Origin: Thozetella sp. PMI_491
Lineage: Eukaryota; Ascomycota; Sordariomycetes; Chaetosphaeriales; Chaetosphaeriaceae
DNA length: 64,000 nt
Reading direction: 5' to 3'
NCBI GenBank assembly: GCA_021432635.1
Contig: MU270016.1
Coordinates: 1,551,611 to 1,615,610, forward strand
Each line of letters begins with the position of its first letter. Position 1 is the first letter of the stretch. Under the pieces are notes generated by a model, which made no database searches, had not been told where the DNA came from, and was given only the letters and a program-made list of their open reading frames with translations. Shown here one piece after another: positions 39,097-57,757 of the stretch. Made by a program: the position numbers and the translations under genes.

Positions 39097-41151
39097 ATGA
39101 ATTCACCTAAGCCTCATGAAAGGGCGCCTACAGGCGTGAAACTCATACATAGGTATTCTAGCCTACCTTTGCCAGAACGCAAGTGAGTACTAATTTCCCT
39201 TGCTAGTCATGCCCACGAAGAGGGTGTTCCAGGCACGATTAATCTCGTTGCAATTGGTAAGTGAGATTTACAAATCTGGCCTAGAATGATAAGCAGCTGA
39301 TCCGGCACTTTTATGTAGAAGGAGACGATACTGCGTATGGACAGGCACTCTTTCCTGTTCCTGCACAGGATCTAAACGATCCTCTACAGGTAGGCATATA
39401 GACCAATCCTTACCCACAGTGGCGTAAGCAGCTCACGCCTAGTGAAAAGTGGCCCAAGTTGAAAAAGATCTTGATCATGGTCGTCATATGTATCTACTCT
39501 TTCCTCGGCAACTCTGCATTGACTGGAATCGCACCTTACGTCACGCTGTTCGCGACAATATTCGACACCACACCTACTGAGGCGTCAAACCTCATTACAT
39601 ATCCAAATCTCGCCTATGGCTTTGGTGCGCCATTCCTTATGCCTTCATATCCTTGGTATCTCGGATACTGATACAAAGAGCTAGGATCACTACTCCTAAT
39701 TCCGCTATATCTGAAGTTTGGTAGACGACCTGTGATGTTGGGCACAATTCTCGTCGTAGGTCCGCCGTGCTCACAAAGACAACGGGCCAAGTGCTAATGT
39801 GTAGTAGTTTATTGCTGGGTTAATTGGTTGTTCTCGAGCCGATACTTTCGGCACACTCATGGTAGCTCGGTGTTTTGCGTCACTTGCCTCAGGTATCTGC
39901 GAAGCCATGCCCGTCCAACTTGTTAATGATGTCTTTTTCATCCACGAACGAGGAACGAAGATTGCGTTTTATACAGGTTGAGTATCCTTCCAGACTCGTA
40001 ATCAGTTTGACATTTTCTTACAAGCCGCAGCTGCTCTCTGCCTATCTACTCTCAGCCCCCTTTGCGCTGGATACATGCTGGAGGCCGGCTATTCCTGGCG
40101 CCTCTTCTTTTACGTTCACATAGCCTTCGCTGGTTTGCTCTTCATTCTCGCATTTCTATTCGCCGAGGAAACTTCGTATGATAGAGAGGCCGTACGAGCA
40201 CAAGAGGCTACGACATGCATAGCGCCGGCCATCAACCAAACTAGTCCCAATGTGCACGATGAGAAGACGATAATCGGAAAAGACATGGCTACGCCCGCAA
40301 ATATTCAACCACGCCGGCAATTCTTTCAGAGGCTTTCGCCAGCTGGGAGAATAGACCATGATTTCCCGTTTTTCTTGACAATTGTTCGATCCTTCTCCTA
40401 CTTTCTCGTCCCACAAGCTTTGTGGGTAATTACAACATACGGGATTATTATTGGCCTTGGTACTTTCGCTATCAGTCTAACGTTCCCGACTAGGATTATG
40501 CAGCCGCCGTACAACTGGGACGTTGTAAGTCGGATTCATGCACCTTACAAGCAAATCCTTGTCTTCTAATTCCAAAAAAAACAGTCTCAATCCGGCCTAC
40601 TTTCGGTCGCATCAACGTTGGGATTTCTCTTTGCCTTGCCGCTATCCTCGTCCTCCGACCGAGTCGCAGCCTACCTGACACGTAGAAACGGCGGTGTACG
40701 CGAAGCAGAAATGCGACTCGGCGTGTTGCTTGTTCCCATGATCCTCGGTCCGGCTGGGCTAATCTGCTATGGCTTTACCGCGCAGTACGGCCTGCATTGG
40801 ACTGGCTACTTTTTTGGCTGCGGCATGCTCGCCTGGAGCGGCTTCTTTTACTTTTCTTATACCATCGTCTATGCTGTTGACTCCTACTTTGCCAACACCT
40901 CAGAAATGTTGATTGCCATAAACATCGGAAAACAGGCAATTAGCTTCGGGTTTGGCTTTGCTGTTTTAACCTGGGTTGTTGACTATGGCTATGTTAACGT
41001 GATCTCCGGCATATTTACTGGTGTTCTCGTTCTTAACAACCTGATGCTTGTTGTTTTCATGATGTGGGGCAAGGATATTCGCAGAGGCATGTCTAAGACA
41101 TGGCTTGCTCGCTTCCATCGGCAGAGTATTAGGGAAGTGATGACACACTAG
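39097..41151 (+). CDS. MFS transporter (DHA1-type, 12-spanner)
   Basis: Eight exons can be joined: 39097-39152, 39207-39256, 39319-39389, 39420-39624, 39685-39755, 39808-39976, 40031-40524 and 40585-41151. They total 560 residues and close in frame. The third intron is only 30 bases with the acceptor used here; an alternative acceptor at 39431 keeps frame. The N-terminal half reads LNDPLQW...PKLKKILIM, then LITYPNLAYGFGSLLLIPLYL and KFGRRPVML, the classic motif A loop. FIAGLIGCSRADTFGTLMVAR and GICEAMPVQLVNDVFF follow. A long central loop at 40180-40340 separates the two halves. A stop-like TGA within 39625-39684 lies in an intron with a CTGAT branch site, so the gene is intact. Probable exporter. 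Confidence 0.85.
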
Positions 41152-41516
41152 GAACTCCTAAATACAGTAAAGCTCAGGTTCAGTGTTATCTTTCACAACC
41201 TGTCAGTATTTCTTCAGGTGGAACGAGGCGGGCCGGGATAGGTTGTTGCTTCTATCTTAGGTACTAAAGGATGGACTTTCTGGAGTAGGTCCCAACTAAG
41301 ACATTGAAGATGGCTAGCCCCAAAATGAAACAGTGCAGTGGAGCATTCATACGTCATTCCTGCGAAGTAGTAACACTTACCATCTTTGGATGTTGGAGGC
41401 TCGTATTCTTCAGCCGCAGCGCCTGACTTGACATGCTACAGGGCGCGGACTTAAAAATATGTCTCCGATTTCCGAGAGAGAGAAGAACTACCCAATTTTC
41501 AACCAAAACTACGGCC
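41152..41516. other. Intergenic stretch
   Basis: 3' flank of the MFS gene and promoter side of the repeat protein. Nothing else seen. Confidence 0.5.
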
Positions 41517-43211
41517 ATGGCCCAAGTAACGCCGTCGAAGCGGTGCCCGGAGCGCTCGGAAACCCTAACTGAGCAGCACTGGTATCATCTCCCGTCTGCC
41601 AAGAACCTGAATATCTGCTCCCGATGCTACTACGACCACCTCAAGCCCACACAATTCGCTGACGGATTCGAGCTAGAGTATGACCAATCCGGTACCGGCC
41701 GGGTTTGCGACTTCAGCACGCCTCGAATGTTTGCTGTCCTGCGACAAGCTCTTGAGCAGAACAGCTTTCATGTCCTCGAGGACTACATTAGATTTCGCAG
41801 CCAGATCCCGCGCTGCAAAGGGGCCGGCGTGCAAACGTCTGCCGAGGATGGCGTCGACTGGGTTGAGCTCACGGACCCCAGCCTGGCTGGCCAGTTCGCG
41901 GCATGCAAGGCCTGTTACGAGGACTACGTTGTCTCGGCTGGCTTCGGCCCTTTTTTTGCGCGCAACTCGACCCGCCAGCCCTCAGGGACGATCTGGATAT
42001 GCGACTTCGGCTGGTCCTTCATCCAGAGGCTTGCTAAACTCTATTCGGATTGGAGCCAGTTTTTGCCCCACGCCTTGCACCGCGCGAAGTTACCTAAATG
42101 CGCTTCAGCAGCTGATGTTGACGGCAGCTCTTTGTCGTGGTGGAAGCTGCGCGCACCAGACTTAGGATCACTGTGGTTGTGCGAGTGCTGCTTTTATGAC
42201 ACGGCGTCCATGACTTGCATGGATCCGCATGTCTACCAGCTGTCTCCCCAACCACCCGACAGCACGCGTCAGTGCTTCTCACAGACTAGCATTCCGCTGC
42301 GTGTGGCGTGGGATGCGGCGCTGCAAAAGCAGGATTTCAACATATTCTACACGGCTGCCCAAACCTTCGTGCGAAGTCCTCCTTGCAACAAGGATGGGAT
42401 TCAAAATGGTGTTTGGTATTCACTGAATCCACCGTGTGAAGAATTCGATGTCTGCGCCGCGTGCTACGCTGGGATCGTGGAAGCAAGCGGTGCAGGCCAC
42501 TTGATGGCTCCAAAATGGACACAACCGGGGCAAGCGAGGGCCTGTGACTTCAATCCTGCCCAGCCTCGAATGCGCAGCTACTTTGTCAAGTTGGATTTTG
42601 CCATAGAGCGGGACGATCCGAGCATTTTTACAAACTTCGTCCGGAGCATATCTGGTGTTCCACTCTGTCCAGGAGGCGCCTTGGTATCGGACAGGCGCTG
42701 GTATCGGCACGACATGTTTTCCTGCTGTCCCTCCTGCTGGGTCGAAGTTGTGGAGGGCACACGCCTGGAATCGTGCTTCTTCTCCAAGAACGAGAGCTAC
42801 CAAGCACCTCTGAGATGTGATTTCTACTCTGCTCGCGTGCGTGGTCTCTGGCGTTCAGCCTGCGAGAAGAACGACCTAGCCGGCTTCACTAATTTTATGC
42901 AGAGACGCCTCGAGGTCTGGAAGCAGACCTACCCACAGATCCAGCAGCACCTAGCGCAGATGCGCATGAACATGCAGACGCAGCAGACACTATTCATGAG
43001 CTCCCTCCTGAACACTGGCGGGAACAACATTGCCGCGGCGGCTGGGGTGCATGGGAACTATGGGAACAACCAGATTGGCTATGGTTACGAGACATATGCC
43101 GGTGCCCAAGGTGCTATGCAGTTTAATCAGGCCCTAGGCATGAATGGCACGAATGGGAGCCTCGCTATGAATGTGACGCAGCTGGAGCTACTATGGAAGA
43201 GTGTGGAATGA
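41517..43211 (+). CDS. Uncharacterised protein made of five Cys-rich modules
   Basis: The frame gives 564 residues from the ATG at 41517 (gccATGGCC), preferred over an upstream ATG at 41433. I recognise no named domain. By eye it is five tandem, divergent modules of about 90-100 residues (roughly 10-100, 101-195, 196-290, 291-384, 385-470). Each has the order W-(Y/V/W)-x-L, C-x2-C-(Y/F/W), CDF (CFS in module 3) and an alpha-helical F-x-x-(F/Y) stretch; modules 1-4 end in P-x-C. Examples are NICSRCYYD...VCDFSTPR, DVCAACYAG...ACDFNPAQPR and SCCPSCWVE...RCDFYSAR. Paired cysteines suggest a metal-binding or disulfide unit. No signal peptide is visible. The tail from about 470 is Gln/Met- then Asn/Gly/Ala-rich. 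Intronless. Confidence 0.8.
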   Translation: MAQVTPSKRCPERSETLTEQHWYHLPSAKNLNICSRCYYDHLKPTQFADGFELEYDQSGTGRVCDFSTPRMFAVLRQALEQNSFHVLEDYIRFRSQIPRCKGAGVQTSAEDGVDWVELTDPSLAGQFAACKACYEDYVVSAGFGPFFARNSTRQPSGTIWICDFGWSFIQRLAKLYSDWSQFLPHALHRAKLPKCASAADVDGSSLSWWKLRAPDLGSLWLCECCFYDTASMTCMDPHVYQLSPQPPDSTRQCFSQTSIPLRVAWDAALQKQDFNIFYTAAQTFVRSPPCNKDGIQNGVWYSLNPPCEEFDVCAACYAGIVEASGAGHLMAPKWTQPGQARACDFNPAQPRMRSYFVKLDFAIERDDPSIFTNFVRSISGVPLCPGGALVSDRRWYRHDMFSCCPSCWVEVVEGTRLESCFFSKNESYQAPLRCDFYSARVRGLWRSACEKNDLAGFTNFMQRRLEVWKQTYPQIQQHLAQMRMNMQTQQTLFMSSLLNTGGNNIAAAAGVHGNYGNNQIGYGYETYAGAQGAMQFNQALGMNGTNGSLAMNVTQLELLWKSVE

Positions 43212-45051: not shown

Positions 45052-45652
45052 TTAGTGCTTTCCCTCCTTGACATACTCGATCTCAGCGCGCTTCCCCTCC
45101 TTGATATAGTCGATTCCGGCACGCTTGCCCTCCTTAATATACTCAATCCCAGCACGCTTACCCTCCTTAATATAATCAATACCAGCGCGCTTGCCCTCCT
45201 TGATATAATCGACCCCGGCACGCTTTCCCTCCTTGATGTATTCGATTTCCTCGCGCTTCCCCTCCTTGATATAGTCGATTCCGGCACGCTTGCCCTCCTT
45301 GATATAGTCAATGCCAGCACGCTTACCCTCCTTGATATAATCAATACCAGCGCGCTTGCCCTCCTTGATATAGTCGACCCCGGCACGCTTTCCCTCCTTG
45401 ATGTATTCGATTTCCTCGCGCTTCCCCTCCTTGATATAGTCGATTCCGGCACGCTTGCCCTCCTTGATATAATCAATTCCAGCGCGCTTGCCCTCCTTGA
45501 TATATTCAATCTCCTCGCGAGCCTGAACGGCTGCTAGTGTCTCATTAGATATCAACTCGGAGATTGTGTAGGTTTCCTCTCCTACCGGTGGGAGCGGCGG
45601 CTACGAGGGGCACAACGGCCACGGCGAGGGCAAAAATAGTATCGAAACGCAT
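45052..45652 (-). CDS. Repeat-type RiPP precursor (dikaritin/UstA-like, Kex2-processed)
   Basis: Exon 1 (45586-45652) encodes a secretion signal, MRFDTIFALAVAVVPLVAAA. The model uses a 52-base intron at 45534-45585 (GTAGGA...CACTAG, branch CTAAT) and exon 2 at 45052-45533, giving 182 residues. Exon 2 encodes 14 perfect-length units of 11 residues. Eight are AGIDYIKEGKR. Three are EEIEYIKEGKR in all, two have AGVD and one AGIE; the last unit is AEIEYVKEGKH. Thirteen units end in KR, a Kex2 (kexin) site. This architecture, secreted with KR-separated Tyr-containing cores and next to a UstYa gene, defines dikaritin-type precursors. By analogy the Tyr is the cross-linking residue and the following Ile its likely partner. 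Alternative: exon 2's frame stays open into the proposed intron, so a one-base frameshift instead of splicing is possible. Confidence 0.85.
45055..45516 (-). repeat. Tandem array, 14 x 33 bp coding repeats
   Basis: Fourteen consecutive 33-base units occupy exactly 462 bases in phase with the reading frame. Units differ mainly at synonymous sites and in the first four codons (AGID, AGVD, AGIE, EEIE, AEIE). There is higher-order structure: the order EEIE-AGVD-AGID-AGI(D/E)-AGID occurs twice, and the sequence atgtattcgatttcctcgcg recurs at 45236 and 45401, exactly 165 bases (five units) apart. This points to a segmental duplication within the array. Confidence 0.95.
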
Positions 45653-46282: not shown

Positions 46283-47316
46283 ATGGGGTTTCCTACTGAG
46301 CAAGCAGACTACGCTGACGACGTCAGTCAAAGAGCTTCCAACGAAGATGATCGATTCTTGAAAGAGTCAGAGCCAGACCATGAGTCCCTTGTATTCGAAG
46401 TTTTGCGAGGGAAGAAGCGCACGTATCGTGCATTTATTCTTTTTACCCTTCTAAATACTCTTATACTATGTGTTTCAGTCGTCTTTTTCGCAGCTTCGCG
46501 CAGGAATGTTTGTGAGGCAGGGAACTCAGACGTCAAGAATAGTCTCCTGAAGGCAACCTCGGAACCATGTACGTTGCTGCTGGTTTTTGGAACCCCAAGC
46601 TGAAGAATGAACACTATAGTTGAGATTTTGTATGACTGACGATTCAAACAGCGCCTCTCCTAGATCTGATCGATATCTCACTTATTTCTAAACGGATGAA
46701 CGGATCTCTCTTGGAAACCAACCCGAAAAATATCTATCGACAATCGCCATCACCCGAGGTCGACGCGGCATGGGGACGAATTCAGACACGCGATTCAATC
46801 GTCATTACCCGAGAGGACGTCATTCGCATGGGCAAGGATCCAGAAGACGCCTCAAAGTATCCGGAATGGATGGGCCTCGGTTCTGATGCCTACATCGCTA
46901 AGGTCGATGTCTTCCACCAGATCCATTGCCTCAACACGCTCCGCAAAAACTTGCATAAAAATTATGACTACTATTACGACAAGCCGGAGGATAAGTTCCA
47001 GGATTTGCATGTTAGCCACTGCCTGGTGAATCTGCTCGAAAATCTCATGTGTTATGGCAACGTGGACGTGTACACACACGTCTGGAATGACGCGCAGATA
47101 CATCCGTTTGCCGACTTCAATATCAACCACAAGTGCCGCGATTTTGATGCTATACTAGCGTGGCAAGAAGAGAACGCCATCCCTCTTGACAGCTGGTCGG
47201 ACGCACGGCCGCCTGACGATTACAAGGTCCACGTCATGAGTCACGAGTTTAAGGAAGTGCTCCACTGGTACGATGATCACCCTAATGTCTACTTTGAGGG
47301 CGGTGAAACGGCATGA
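46283..47316 (+). CDS. UstYa family oxidase (DUF3328)
   Basis: Exons 46283-46568 and 46652-47316 join (GTACGT donor, CTGAC branch, ACAG acceptor) to 316 residues. A cytosolic acidic N-terminus and the basic stretch RGKKRTYRA precede one transmembrane helix at about residues 50-71. The lumenal domain carries the two diagnostic HxxHC motifs, HQIHC at 184-188 (followed by LNTLRK) and HVSHC at 215-219 (followed by LVNLLENLMCYG). YPEWMGLG and the start of the domain around WGRI also match. UstYa proteins are metal-dependent oxidases that perform the Tyr-side-chain macrocyclisation of ustiloxin-type RiPPs in the secretory pathway. Its divergent position beside the repeat precursor makes that peptide the obvious substrate. 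Only one UstY gene is visible; ustiloxin uses two. Confidence 0.93.
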
Positions 47317-52915: not shown

Positions 52916-53261
52916 TCACGGGTTGTCGCAATCCCCGTATGTAGAAACACATATAGATCCCTTATTTCCACACGCGGTACAGTAAGCATGCTCCGTGCTA
53001 TAGCAGTTACCCTCTCCAATTAGGCAATGGCCGCCCACATGGACGCAGTTGGTACATGCTCGTGCGTTGAGCGGGCGAAGCTAAGATCGCATCAGCCACA
53101 ACCATGGGAATTGGCTCAATTTTGCTGAAACTCACAACTTCACGGACGAGAGTCTGTCCGTCTCGCTGAATAACTTCGACGCCCATCAGGGTGGGAGCAG
53201 GGCTAGCAACGGCGCCTAGGATGGCTGTGCAAGCAATGGCAAGGAAGGCGGCTCGCATCAT
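52916..53261 (-). CDS. Small secreted cysteine-rich protein (effector-like)
   Basis: Exon 1 (53136-53261) and exon 2 (52916-53080) are joined by a 55-base intron with GTGAGT donor, CTGAT branch and TTAG acceptor, giving 96 residues. Without splicing the frame ends early and the cysteines are lost. The signal peptide is MMRAAFLAIACTAILGAVAS. A short pro-like region (PAPTLMGVEVIQRDGQ) precedes a C-terminal domain with eight cysteines in the pattern ACTNC, GGHC, GNC, AYC, TAC, SIC, GDC, ending DNP. I do not recognise the family. The even cysteine number suggests four disulfides, as in small secreted effectors or antimicrobial-type peptides. No function can be assigned. Confidence 0.7.
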
Positions 53262-54014
53262 GAATGACTGAGTAGGTATCTTGAAGTGCTGAGAAGTTGA
53301 CAGGTACTGCCAAGGCGAAGTCGGATTATTTATTGACGATGAAACTGGTGTCCCTGTACAATCAACAGCGGGGACGGGTGATGCGTTTTATACTTAGGAA
53401 ATAGAAATAACTGGCGGAGGATCTATCATCTGCTCTCTTCATAGAGATTATGGCAATAATCTTCATGGTTTTCTAATCATTGCGTCGCGGAGTAAATTCC
53501 CAGTGTCCTCATTCCTCACTGGCTCGTAGATGACGCGAACCCGGTGCTACGTTAGGTGGAATGTTGTACTGAGCGACTTTGATACTAGTTGCCACTCCTT
53601 CTATTTCAAGCTAGCTGAGTATCACAGAATTCTCTGGCCCAAGACTAACACTGCCTCGGTTTCAATTTAGTGGTTGAGTTGTATGTGATACAATTTGGGG
53701 CGTCAGAAAATGACTATCTATATCTATTAGACGGTGGCAAAGACGCTAGCCGCCCCGAAAGTCCCTCTCGATTGGGAAAAGACCTACAACCGTCTCCGTT
53801 GAAACCCGATCCGTACGACTCATGTCATCCCTTTCTTGAATTTTGAGACATATTTCATCTACACAGACCTACAATCCGGGCAAGGGGGCCGGACTTTCGG
53901 GTGTTACGGAAAGCAAGAGGCAATGGCAGGCTCAGGTCAAAACGAGCAGCCCAAGCCTCAATAATCCTCCTTTTCATAGCTTTTATGAAATATCTTGAGC
54001 ATTATACATGTGAA
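53262..54014. other. Intergenic stretch
   Basis: Promoter side of the small secreted protein gene on the minus strand, and the 3' flank of the VCBS remnant. No gene seen. Confidence 0.45.
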
Positions 54015-55775: not shown

Positions 55776-55840
55776 CTAAAGACAGCTTGTTAACATAGAA
55801 TTCTACGTGGATAGTAGATGTACCGTGGTCTTGAGCTTAC

Positions 55841-57757
55841 CATTGACATACACCCAACGCACACCTCGTGCAATACAACCATCAGACAGAGTAAATTTCG
55901 TGGCATCTTCAGCGAAACCTCCATTTCCATTATTCTTGTATGCCCAATAATTTCGGCCAGGAGACGCGTCATCGGCGATCATGAGTATGTCATGATTTCC
56001 AAACGGCGCCCCCAATCGCGCAAATGTAGAGCTCGAGTTTGCCAGCCCGTATATACTTGCTCGGATACCTTGATCAGCGCCTTGGTGTGAGTAGATGCCG
56101 TCGTTTAGGCCACTTCCAGCCTGGGTGTTAACTGGCCCGTACGACTGTCCCGAGCCGTGTGTCTTGTCGCAAGTGTTGTCATTAGGCGCCCCAGCGTCAT
56201 CGTAGGCCTTATTTTTAACATCCTCATTCCGGTGATACACCAGAGGTCGGATAAAACTACCTTTGCCTGTGCGGGGCACAACATAGCCAGGAACAAACAC
56301 CATCATATTCTGCTTCAAATCCACTGGCACCTGGCCTTTGAGATCCTCCTCGACGGTGCTCCAGACCCGCTTGGCCACGTTCTCCGCAGACATGGCGCAC
56401 TCTGGCTTTTCGAAGAGTAGAACACCAGGGTAGGGCCGGTTGTTGCCAAATAGAACCGTATCTTGAAGGATATCATCGTTCTTGGCCATGATGCGGTTCT
56501 CGTACTCGACAGCGCTAATTAGTACGAGATGGTGTCCCAAGAGGATCTTGAGTTCGTCTGAGGCGCGGCCAATCCACTTGTACCGTGGCTCGGTTGGATA
56601 CTTGACGAACATGTCATCCGGATGAAAGGTGCCGTCTTCGCCGTTGGAAAATGCTTTATTCTGCAGTGGGTGGGTTGGAAGCACTACCAATTCGTATAAC
56701 TCACAGCTGCTGCCCTCCGCTTCTGGAAGCAGTCGAAACCCTACGTGGGGTTTTGACAAGGCATCCGGCTGCAGGTACTCCCAATCCGGGTCCCCAGGGA
56801 TTGAACTCAACCCAGCCGCGAGCTCTGTCATGCCGTACTCGTTCGACAGGCGCACACCAGCTGCTACGAGTTTGTTCCCCAGGTACTGCGGGCAAACTAG
56901 ACCAGCTGCCACTACAGCCTTGCAACTTTGAAGAATGCGTAATCCCTCATCGGTGGATGAGATCTCCCTCAAGACGACAGGGTTGACCCAAGCCACATCA
57001 GGCTTGGCTTCGGCCAAGACCTTTCGGTAATCGTCAGGATGGAAGGAGGTGGTCTCCAGTGGCCAGACGGCCGGGCCTTCCGGGTCTTTGACAAATGCGA
57101 AAAACAAACAGAGGAGGCCGCCGATGTAGTGCATCCATGATCCGACAAAATACCTTAGCTTTCGCACTGGAGACGGTATATTTCCGATACCTGTTATCAG
57201 CTCCCTGTGGGTTTTGTGGATAAGTGTTGGCAGGCCGGCCGAGCCCGACGACGACATAATCACGGCAGGGTGTGTATCTTGGATGTGGGCCCAGTTCTGT
57301 TTATACTCGTCGCTGCTTTCATGCTTGTCGTCGACGTCGTCAAAGTGTGGGATCGAAATGATAGTCTTGGTAGATTCCAGCTCAAACAGTCAATAGGAGT
57401 CTGTACCGTCGATAAGGATCTCGGCGACGGCATGAGTGTTGCGACTTTCTCAGGAGCCAGCACAGGGCTAATGATTAATACCACGTGATCATGCCGAATA
57501 AGGGCCAAAAAGGACGCCAGCCACTCGATACTAGAGGTAGCACGGAGGCCCACTGTCTGGGGTCTGTTCTGAGGCAGACCAGCGTCATGATATACCTTGA
57601 TGGCCTCATCGGCTAGCCATCCAATTTGCTGCGGCGAATAGTACTTAATTCCAGACCCATGCTGGGGGAAACCGAAGAGCCTGGCTGTGGACCGCTTTGT
57701 TGCCTCAGGGCACTCTTGGGCAGTCCGACTATGCTTTGATGGTTGATCCATGGTCAC
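55841..57757 (-). CDS. Adenylation (AMP-binding) domain fused to the start of a VCBS domain
   Basis: Exon 1 is 57407-57757; a 41-base intron (57366-57406) is the simplest junction, and exon 2 runs to a GTAAGC donor at 55840. N-terminal FPQHGSGIKYYSPQQIGWL and ISPVLAPEKVATLM match the start of NRPS-like adenylation domains. The A3 loop is SSSGSAGLPTLIHKTH, with Thr where the conserved Lys usually stands. A5 is NEYGMTELA, A8 is GRASDELKILLG, and the A10 region is PRTGKGSFIRP with its Lys. No carrier (T) domain follows. Instead the same frame continues into GLNDGIYSHQGADQG and DILMIADDASPGRNYW, which are VCBS-type sequence. Adenylation enzymes are cytosolic while VCBS proteins are usually secreted, so this looks like a chance gene fusion whose downstream part is decaying. 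Enzyme activity is uncertain. Confidence 0.65.

Follow-up and report, generated by a model that had tools for sequence, protein, structure and literature searches.

A repeat precursor gene and a divergent UstYa gene: a probable two-gene, UstYa-type fungal RiPP locus

The locus described here lies within a 64-kb window (the whole stretch of DNA that was analyzed) and consists of two genes with divergent start codons (Table 1). On the minus strand (45652-45052), translation gives 14 units of 11 residues each, preceded by a signal-peptide-like start, and next to this gene is one of the UstYa type. The original prediction had specified 14 units of 11 residues, with a Kex2 site in 13, and minus-strand translation confirms both numbers. 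It had placed the locus at 45052..45652, which is indeed where the array lies, although the coding strand is the minus strand and the plus-strand reading is a different frame. The units are AGIDYIKEGKR (seven copies), EEIEYIKEGKR (three), AGVDYIKEGKR (two), AGIEYIKEGKR (one) and AEIEYVKEGKH (one). They are arranged head-to-tail, and all end in KR (13 of 14) except the last, which ends in KH and is followed by the stop codon. Tyr5, Lys7, Glu8, Gly9 and Lys10 are invariant in all 14 units, the residue before the Tyr (position 4) is always acidic, and positions 3 and 6 are Ile or Val throughout. By definition, a KEP has at least three tandem repeats of at least eight amino acids between Kex2 sites, and an N-terminal signal peptide (PMC7329392). 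The precursor has 14 repeats, with nine amino acids between KR sites, in keeping with the repeat part of this definition. A repeat precursor of the Kex2-processed (KEP) type with a Tyr-Ile-Lys-Glu core, as originally expected, is supported.

Table 1. Positions of the features of the locus and of a candidate transporter gene.
Feature	Position	Strand	Description	Basis
MFS transporter gene (candidate member)	39402..41151	+	several exons; PF07690	upstream exon by eye
Precursor exon 2	45052..45533	-	spacer AAVQAR, 14 units, stop codon 45054-45052	translation
Repeat array	45055..45516	-	14 x 33 nt; units [AE][GE][IV][DE]Y[IV]KEGK(R/H); 165-nt higher-order repeat	translation, repeat finding
Precursor predicted intron	45534..45585	-	52 nt, GTAGGA...CTAAT...CACTAG	GT-AG pair listing
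Precursor exon 1	45586..45652	-	ATG at 45652, signal-peptide-like MRFDTIFALAVAVVPLVAAAPT	hydropathy
Intergenic, between divergent start codons	45653..46282	.	630 bp	
UstYa exon 1	46283..46568	+	hydrophobic segment AFILFTLLNTLILCVSVVFFAAS	
UstYa predicted intron	46569..46651	+	83 nt, GTACGT...CTGAC...ACAG	
UstYa exon 2	46652..47316	+	UstYa/DUF3328 domain, HQIHC and HVSHC	Pfam, motifs

Tandem Repeats Finder gives two rows with a score above 50 in the 64-kb window, both of which are the precursor array. The first (45057-45504) has a period of 33, with 13.6 copies and 81% matches, and the second (45057-45510) has a period of 165, or five units, with 2.8 copies and 94% matches. Because the longer period matches at this level, the array has probably grown in part by duplication of five-unit blocks. 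A genome search found no second copy, its one match being the array itself. MF_alpha, the family expected for a mating factor of the yeast alpha type, is absent from the Pfam scan of the array, and the five weak families that do appear (PRS7_OB, ATP-grasp_6, DUF4845, DUF2812 and RnlA_toxin_N) are all below their Pfam cut-offs, and we take them to be composition effects.

The 14 units comprise 11 distinct DNA sequences, which encode five distinct peptides. In unit-to-unit comparisons, whose pairs are not independent, pN/pS is 0.14 for the precursor frame and 0.04 for the ten AG units alone; the other five frames of the array give 3.75, 1.31, 4.88, 0.30 and 2.44. Within the unit, 8 of the 11 third codon positions are variable, as compared to 5 of the 22 first and second positions (Fisher p = 0.009). 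Since the differences between units are mostly at synonymous sites, it is the peptide itself that is conserved.

The reading frame that opens with the ATG at 45652 stops before the array, and upstream of the array its own frame is interrupted by a stop. The N-terminus of exon 1 is hydrophobic (mean hydropathy 2.56, residues 5-19), which suggests a signal peptide. The original prediction, which makes no mention of frames, has a signal peptide leading into the array, but the signal-peptide-like start and the array are in different frames and would be joined by a predicted intron of 52 or 55 nt. Candidate introns were GT-AG pairs of 38-160 nt that leave an open frame of over 130 residues, and there are many such pairs. 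The donor GTAGGA at 45585 was chosen for three reasons: with either of its two pairs no part of the signal peptide or of the 14 units is lost, these pairs include the sole CTRAY motif in the first 200 nt (CTAAT), and the precursor of another UstYa locus, L028, has the same arrangement. The 52-nt splice would give a product of 182 residues, in which MRFDTIFALAVAVVPLVAAAPTAAVQAR is followed by the units, and the next acceptor (a CAG ending at 45531) would give 181 residues. Both lengths keep the frame, and with the choice made by features such as these, an intron of 55 nt is an equal possibility. The donor at 45556 was rejected. It too leaves the signal peptide whole, and CTAAT lies within its shortest pairs (of 43 and 46 nt), but all of its pairs remove at least part of the first unit. 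The remaining GT-AG pairs have open frames, yet they truncate either the signal peptide or at least the first unit.

The L028 precursor (MRFFESVVVVAAVALAAPT...) has a similar frame break after its signal peptide, which is resolved by a predicted 52-nt intron (GTATGT...CTAAC...CTACAG) at the same position as in the window gene, and this parallel supports the prediction made here. The precursors at two further loci, L010 and L013, run from signal peptide through array with no intron, so an intron is not general in such precursors. With the predicted splice, the precursor gene would be intact as it stands, with no sequence change needed.

The adjacent gene has a predicted product of 316 amino acids from two exons, with HQIHC at residue 184 and HVSHC at residue 215. 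Pfam PF11807 matches at 46636-47313 (E 8.7e-53), and the segment AFILFTLLNTLILCVSVVFFAAS would serve as the membrane anchor of the protein. In the search of its own genome, which yielded at least 149 UstYa exon matches, this gene gives the second best; that match crosses two TGA codons at its upstream end, where it overlaps the predicted 83-nt intron. Among the loci that were read, its best-scoring paralogues are approximately 40% identical to it, and exon 2 has no sequence match to solved structures up to E 1. The double HxxHC has been proposed to mark DUF3328 proteins that are related to RiPPs (PMC12048977). The 630-bp stretch between the two start codons is a possible shared promoter.

The MFS gene in Table 1 and the precursor are 3.9 kb apart, and another open frame lies between them. 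PF07690 matches it at 39982-40566 (E 6.4e-09), and 40570-41148 has no Pfam match. More distant candidates for membership of the locus, based on Pfam, are a beta-lactamase-family serine hydrolase, a carboxylesterase, an FMO-like enzyme and an adenylate-forming enzyme. The last of these is in pieces (55803-57757, minus strand; AMP-binding, AMP-binding_C_3). The 20 reading frames scanned by Pfam in the window include MFS transporters and no methyltransferase family. None of the 80 tyrosinase matches in the genome is inside the window (C2:1551611-1615610). Also present in the window are a Cys-rich open frame of 592 amino acids with no Pfam match (41433-43211, plus strand) and a small secreted-looking protein (MMRAAFLAIACTAILGAVASPAP...; 52916-53387, minus strand) with a Cys-rich reading frame just downstream.

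The genome searched is 72.3 Mb in 157 contigs. Its content (UstYa, Gti1/Pac2 and fungal rhodopsin domains) is that of a filamentous fungus, and its UstYa exon matches (in at least 98 groups) form an unusually rich set relative to other fungi. One of them is in the window, where a weak second match could be missed, as 150 of 203 candidates were scored. By simple arithmetic, and with the group count as a lower bound, the 1 kb around these groups covers about 0.4% of the genome, and the probability that the array and the UstYa gene adjoin by chance is small. Twenty of the 97 other UstYa places were read, at 10 kb each. A scan for regular dibasic sites found Kex2-type arrays at four of these 20 loci (L010, L013, L022 and L028) and no KR array at the other 16, the 20 being the first in a list ordered by search ranking by contig and not a random draw. 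Each of the four has Tyr in its main unit, and the cores are unrelated to that of the window. With at least three [KR]R sites, the scan gives eight rows, of which three are from L010 (two arrays and one antisense shadow), two from L013 (one array split by an N run), and one each from L022, L028 and the window; with at least four sites, it gives L010, L013 and L028 plus the window. Controls with other dipeptides gave 8 rows for K[KR], 3 for [ST]G, 2 for [DE]A, 2 for L[KR], 1 for RR and 8 for A[ST], but these provide no independent null, since any tandem repeat answers to them and they mostly find the same arrays again.

The L010 stretch has two UstYa matches beside two different Kex2-type arrays, at L010:8978-9448 (plus strand, QLYRDNGGGYSALVPGDVEKR) and L010:1025-1408 (minus strand, EPGTYGVDTFGAIKR). 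The L028 precursor (L028:241-717, minus strand) has 25-residue units (APNTDASEVVAYNAAGTVAGWAEKR), the L013 array (L013:4736-5238, plus strand; WSDDFGAADGPASGYGQDKKR) is broken by an N run of the assembly, and L022 has an array of two mixed units, EPAEYTFSTLKIIGKDGAEVEKR and EPQYTSPNALRLKEKEKR, near its UstYa gene (L022:7115-7858, plus strand). The repeats of four other loci were excluded because they have no regular KR-type sites: those of L014 (30 residues ending in KK, in a long frame, plus low-complexity sequence), L024 (25 residues), L015 (21 residues) and L012 (23 residues, 1.9 copies). Elsewhere in the genome, UstYa and tyrosinase matches are found within 1 kb (G000:C38:411322-413274) and 5 kb (C43:586578-591949) of each other, which is the pairing found in strict dikaritin clusters. 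The kexin-type P domain has one match in the genome, whose alignment crosses three stops, as expected from an intron. Judging from the number of UstYa matches and from the arrays at other loci, the genome is rich in peptide loci of this sort.

We consider this locus to be, with good probability, a two-gene, asperipin-like fungal RiPP locus of the UstYa type, with a product that is oxidized at the invariant Tyr. Because the UstYa gene adjoins the precursor, a modified RiPP is more likely than a plain secreted peptide; the product is probably a small bioactive peptide that is secreted. The route known for the class consists of a signal peptide, a Kex2 cut after KR, trimming, and UstYa-type oxidation (PMC6514808, PMC9233826). 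Here, the signal peptide would bring the precursor into the secretory pathway, where a Kex2-type protease would cleave after KR and a carboxypeptidase would then remove the basic residues. This would yield up to 14 nonapeptides of five kinds, chiefly AGIDYIKEG and EEIEYIKEG, and the membrane-anchored UstYa oxidase of the same compartment would oxidize each core at Tyr5. The most likely outcome would be an ether cross-link (loss of 2 H) between Tyr5 and a residue two positions away.

Two residues qualify as the partner. It would be Lys7 if the ustiloxin/phomopsin pattern applies (Tyr to +2) and the beta-branched Ile/Val3 if the direction is reversed. The cores of UstA are flanked by ED and KR motifs (PMC6514808). 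The acidic residue that precedes the Tyr here is similar to that ED flank, and this would make Tyr the first residue of the ring and put Lys at the partner position. A charged, Lys-bridged ring, in which the Tyr phenol is linked to the beta carbon of the Lys at +2 (Tyr-Ile-Lys), is a tentative proposal with a minority of the probability. Among the described UstYa products examined, none has Lys as the +2 partner, and the open literature matches listed include no product with a fungal Tyr-Lys cross-link and no counterpart among newer UstYa products. If the Tyr-Lys link is correct, Lys is tolerated where ustiloxin and phomopsin have Ile, and the range of UstYa partners is wider than in the described products examined.

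Of the other readings, the one that survives best, though we regard it as fairly unlikely, is that of a plain linear Kex2-processed peptide, secreted as a signal or surface peptide in the manner of alpha-pheromone, with a UstYa neighbor that is accidental or belongs to another pathway. Of the 7878 KEPs, 78% have no DUF3328 gene nearby and 22% have one (PMC7329392); the core is also charged and resembles an ordinary hydrophilic peptide. UstYa genes are very numerous here, so that some adjacency to them must be accidental, and most of the other UstYa loci that were read have no array beside them. The reading is opposed by the divergent UstYa gene only 630 bp away, by the Tyr that is found in every unit, and by the survey itself, in which KEPs annotated as mating factors or pheromones have no DUF3328 neighbor, with three exceptions (PMC7329392).

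A UstYa protein might also modify the core by hydroxylation, dehydrogenation or chlorination, with no ring formed, which is an unlikely outcome and one whose odds overlap with those of the preferred reading, as it is a variant of it. The astins are not known to be RiPPs. Hydroxylation and chlorination are attributed to the UstYa family beside ether formation, with the astins named in this context (PMC12048977). The KEP products considered here from two other papers are, however, cross-linked via an aromatic side chain (PMC6514808, PMC9233826), and the Tyr of the window array is invariant.

A decayed gene, with a frame difference due to mutation and without a secreted precursor as product, is very improbable. 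The signal peptide and the array are in different genomic frames and the splice is a predicted one, but an intron with GT, CTAAT and AG would restore the frame, L028 has its predicted intron of equal length at the same site, the 14 units are open and have diverged synonymously, and the UstYa gene is open through both exons with both motifs present; we reject this reading based on the in-frame predicted intron and the L028 parallel. A non-coding tandem repeat, or an ORF in another frame or strand, is rejected as extremely improbable on the basis of codon-level constraint, since the 187-codon open frames on the plus strand and in the second minus frame have pN/pS values of 4.88 and 3.75, respectively, and the antisense frame at offset 1, with its low value of 0.30, has a stop in its listed translations.

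On the preferred reading, the locus is probably a further precursor-UstYa pair for small cyclic peptides of a known fungal kind, with its own repeat sequence. KEPs with a DUF3328 neighbor numbered 1758 of 7878 in 2020, and their cores are very diverse; DUF3328 genes peak at the position adjoining KEP genes, and Tyr is present in the repeat of 65.6% of the DUF3328-linked KEPs versus 38.2% of the others (PMC7329392). In the same survey, 2560 of the 7878 KEPs had no homologue of any kind (PMC7329392), so that it is ordinary for a core to be unfamiliar. Searches of 5.39 million open papers with core fragments gave, judged by title, no work on fungal peptides among the matches listed, and "YIK" is absent from the main text of each of two surveys of fungal KEPs and RiPPs. 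With two genes, 14 nearly identical cores and one UstYa, the locus is of about the minimal size for such a pathway. For this reason, and because Lys replaces the Ile of ustiloxin, it provides a compact test of the residues that a UstYa oxidase can join, although our understanding of the class is unchanged by it until a product is observed.

The locus can be compared with several described systems. The dikaritins are defined in two ways. In the strict sense (Ding et al., quoted in PMC12048977), the cluster has a tyrosinase gene and multiple DUF3328 genes, and further methyltransferase and peptidase/transporter genes; at this locus, neither a tyrosinase gene nor more than one DUF3328 gene was found. 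In the wide sense, the DUF3328/UstYa protein is the class-defining enzyme (PMC12048977), and here there is an adjacent DUF3328/UstYa gene whose product has two HxxHC motifs. Phomopsin (phomA) is similar in having repeated cores with KR (eight in phomopsin) and a DUF3328 protein, and differs in its core, its tyrosinase and its five DUF3328 proteins (PMC7329392, PMC6514808). In both ustiloxin and phomopsin, Tyr is bonded to an internal Ile, and the phomopsin ring is a Tyr-Ile ether (PMC6514808). Ustiloxin B (ustA, ustYa, ustYb, ustQ) shares with the window locus a signal-peptide-like start, many short cores (16 in UstA, 14 here), KR sites, an acidic residue before the Tyr and a UstYa-type oxidase. 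Its pathway has two UstY proteins and a tyrosinase, in contrast to one UstYa and no tyrosinase match in the window, and the residue at +2 from the Tyr is Ile in ustiloxin (YAIG) rather than Lys.

The epichloecyclins (gigA) are also nonapeptides from a Kex2 repeat precursor, with Tyr inside the core and Lys present; their ring is described as running from the N-terminal Ile to an internal Tyr, and there are four repeats versus 14 here (PMC9233826, PMC6514808). More generally, the window gene is like other KEPs with DUF3328 neighbors (PMC7329392) in having repeats and a DUF3328 gene next door. Besides its precursor gene (aprA), the asperipin locus contains genes for one UstYa homologue (aprY), a transporter (aprT) and a reductase (aprR), and in its product Tyr side chains are joined to beta carbons (PMC6514808). 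The asperipin-2a core, FYYTGY, is bicyclic via Tyr ethers, whereas the window core has one Tyr and a charged YIKE, and the asperipin gene set is incomplete here in that none of the 20 reading frames scanned by Pfam in the window is isoflavone-reductase-like. Both loci have a KEP precursor with one UstYa homologue and a transporter gene near (here the MFS gene, a candidate member). Because the window has a single UstYa gene and lacks any tyrosinase match, it is asperipin-2a that the locus resembles most.
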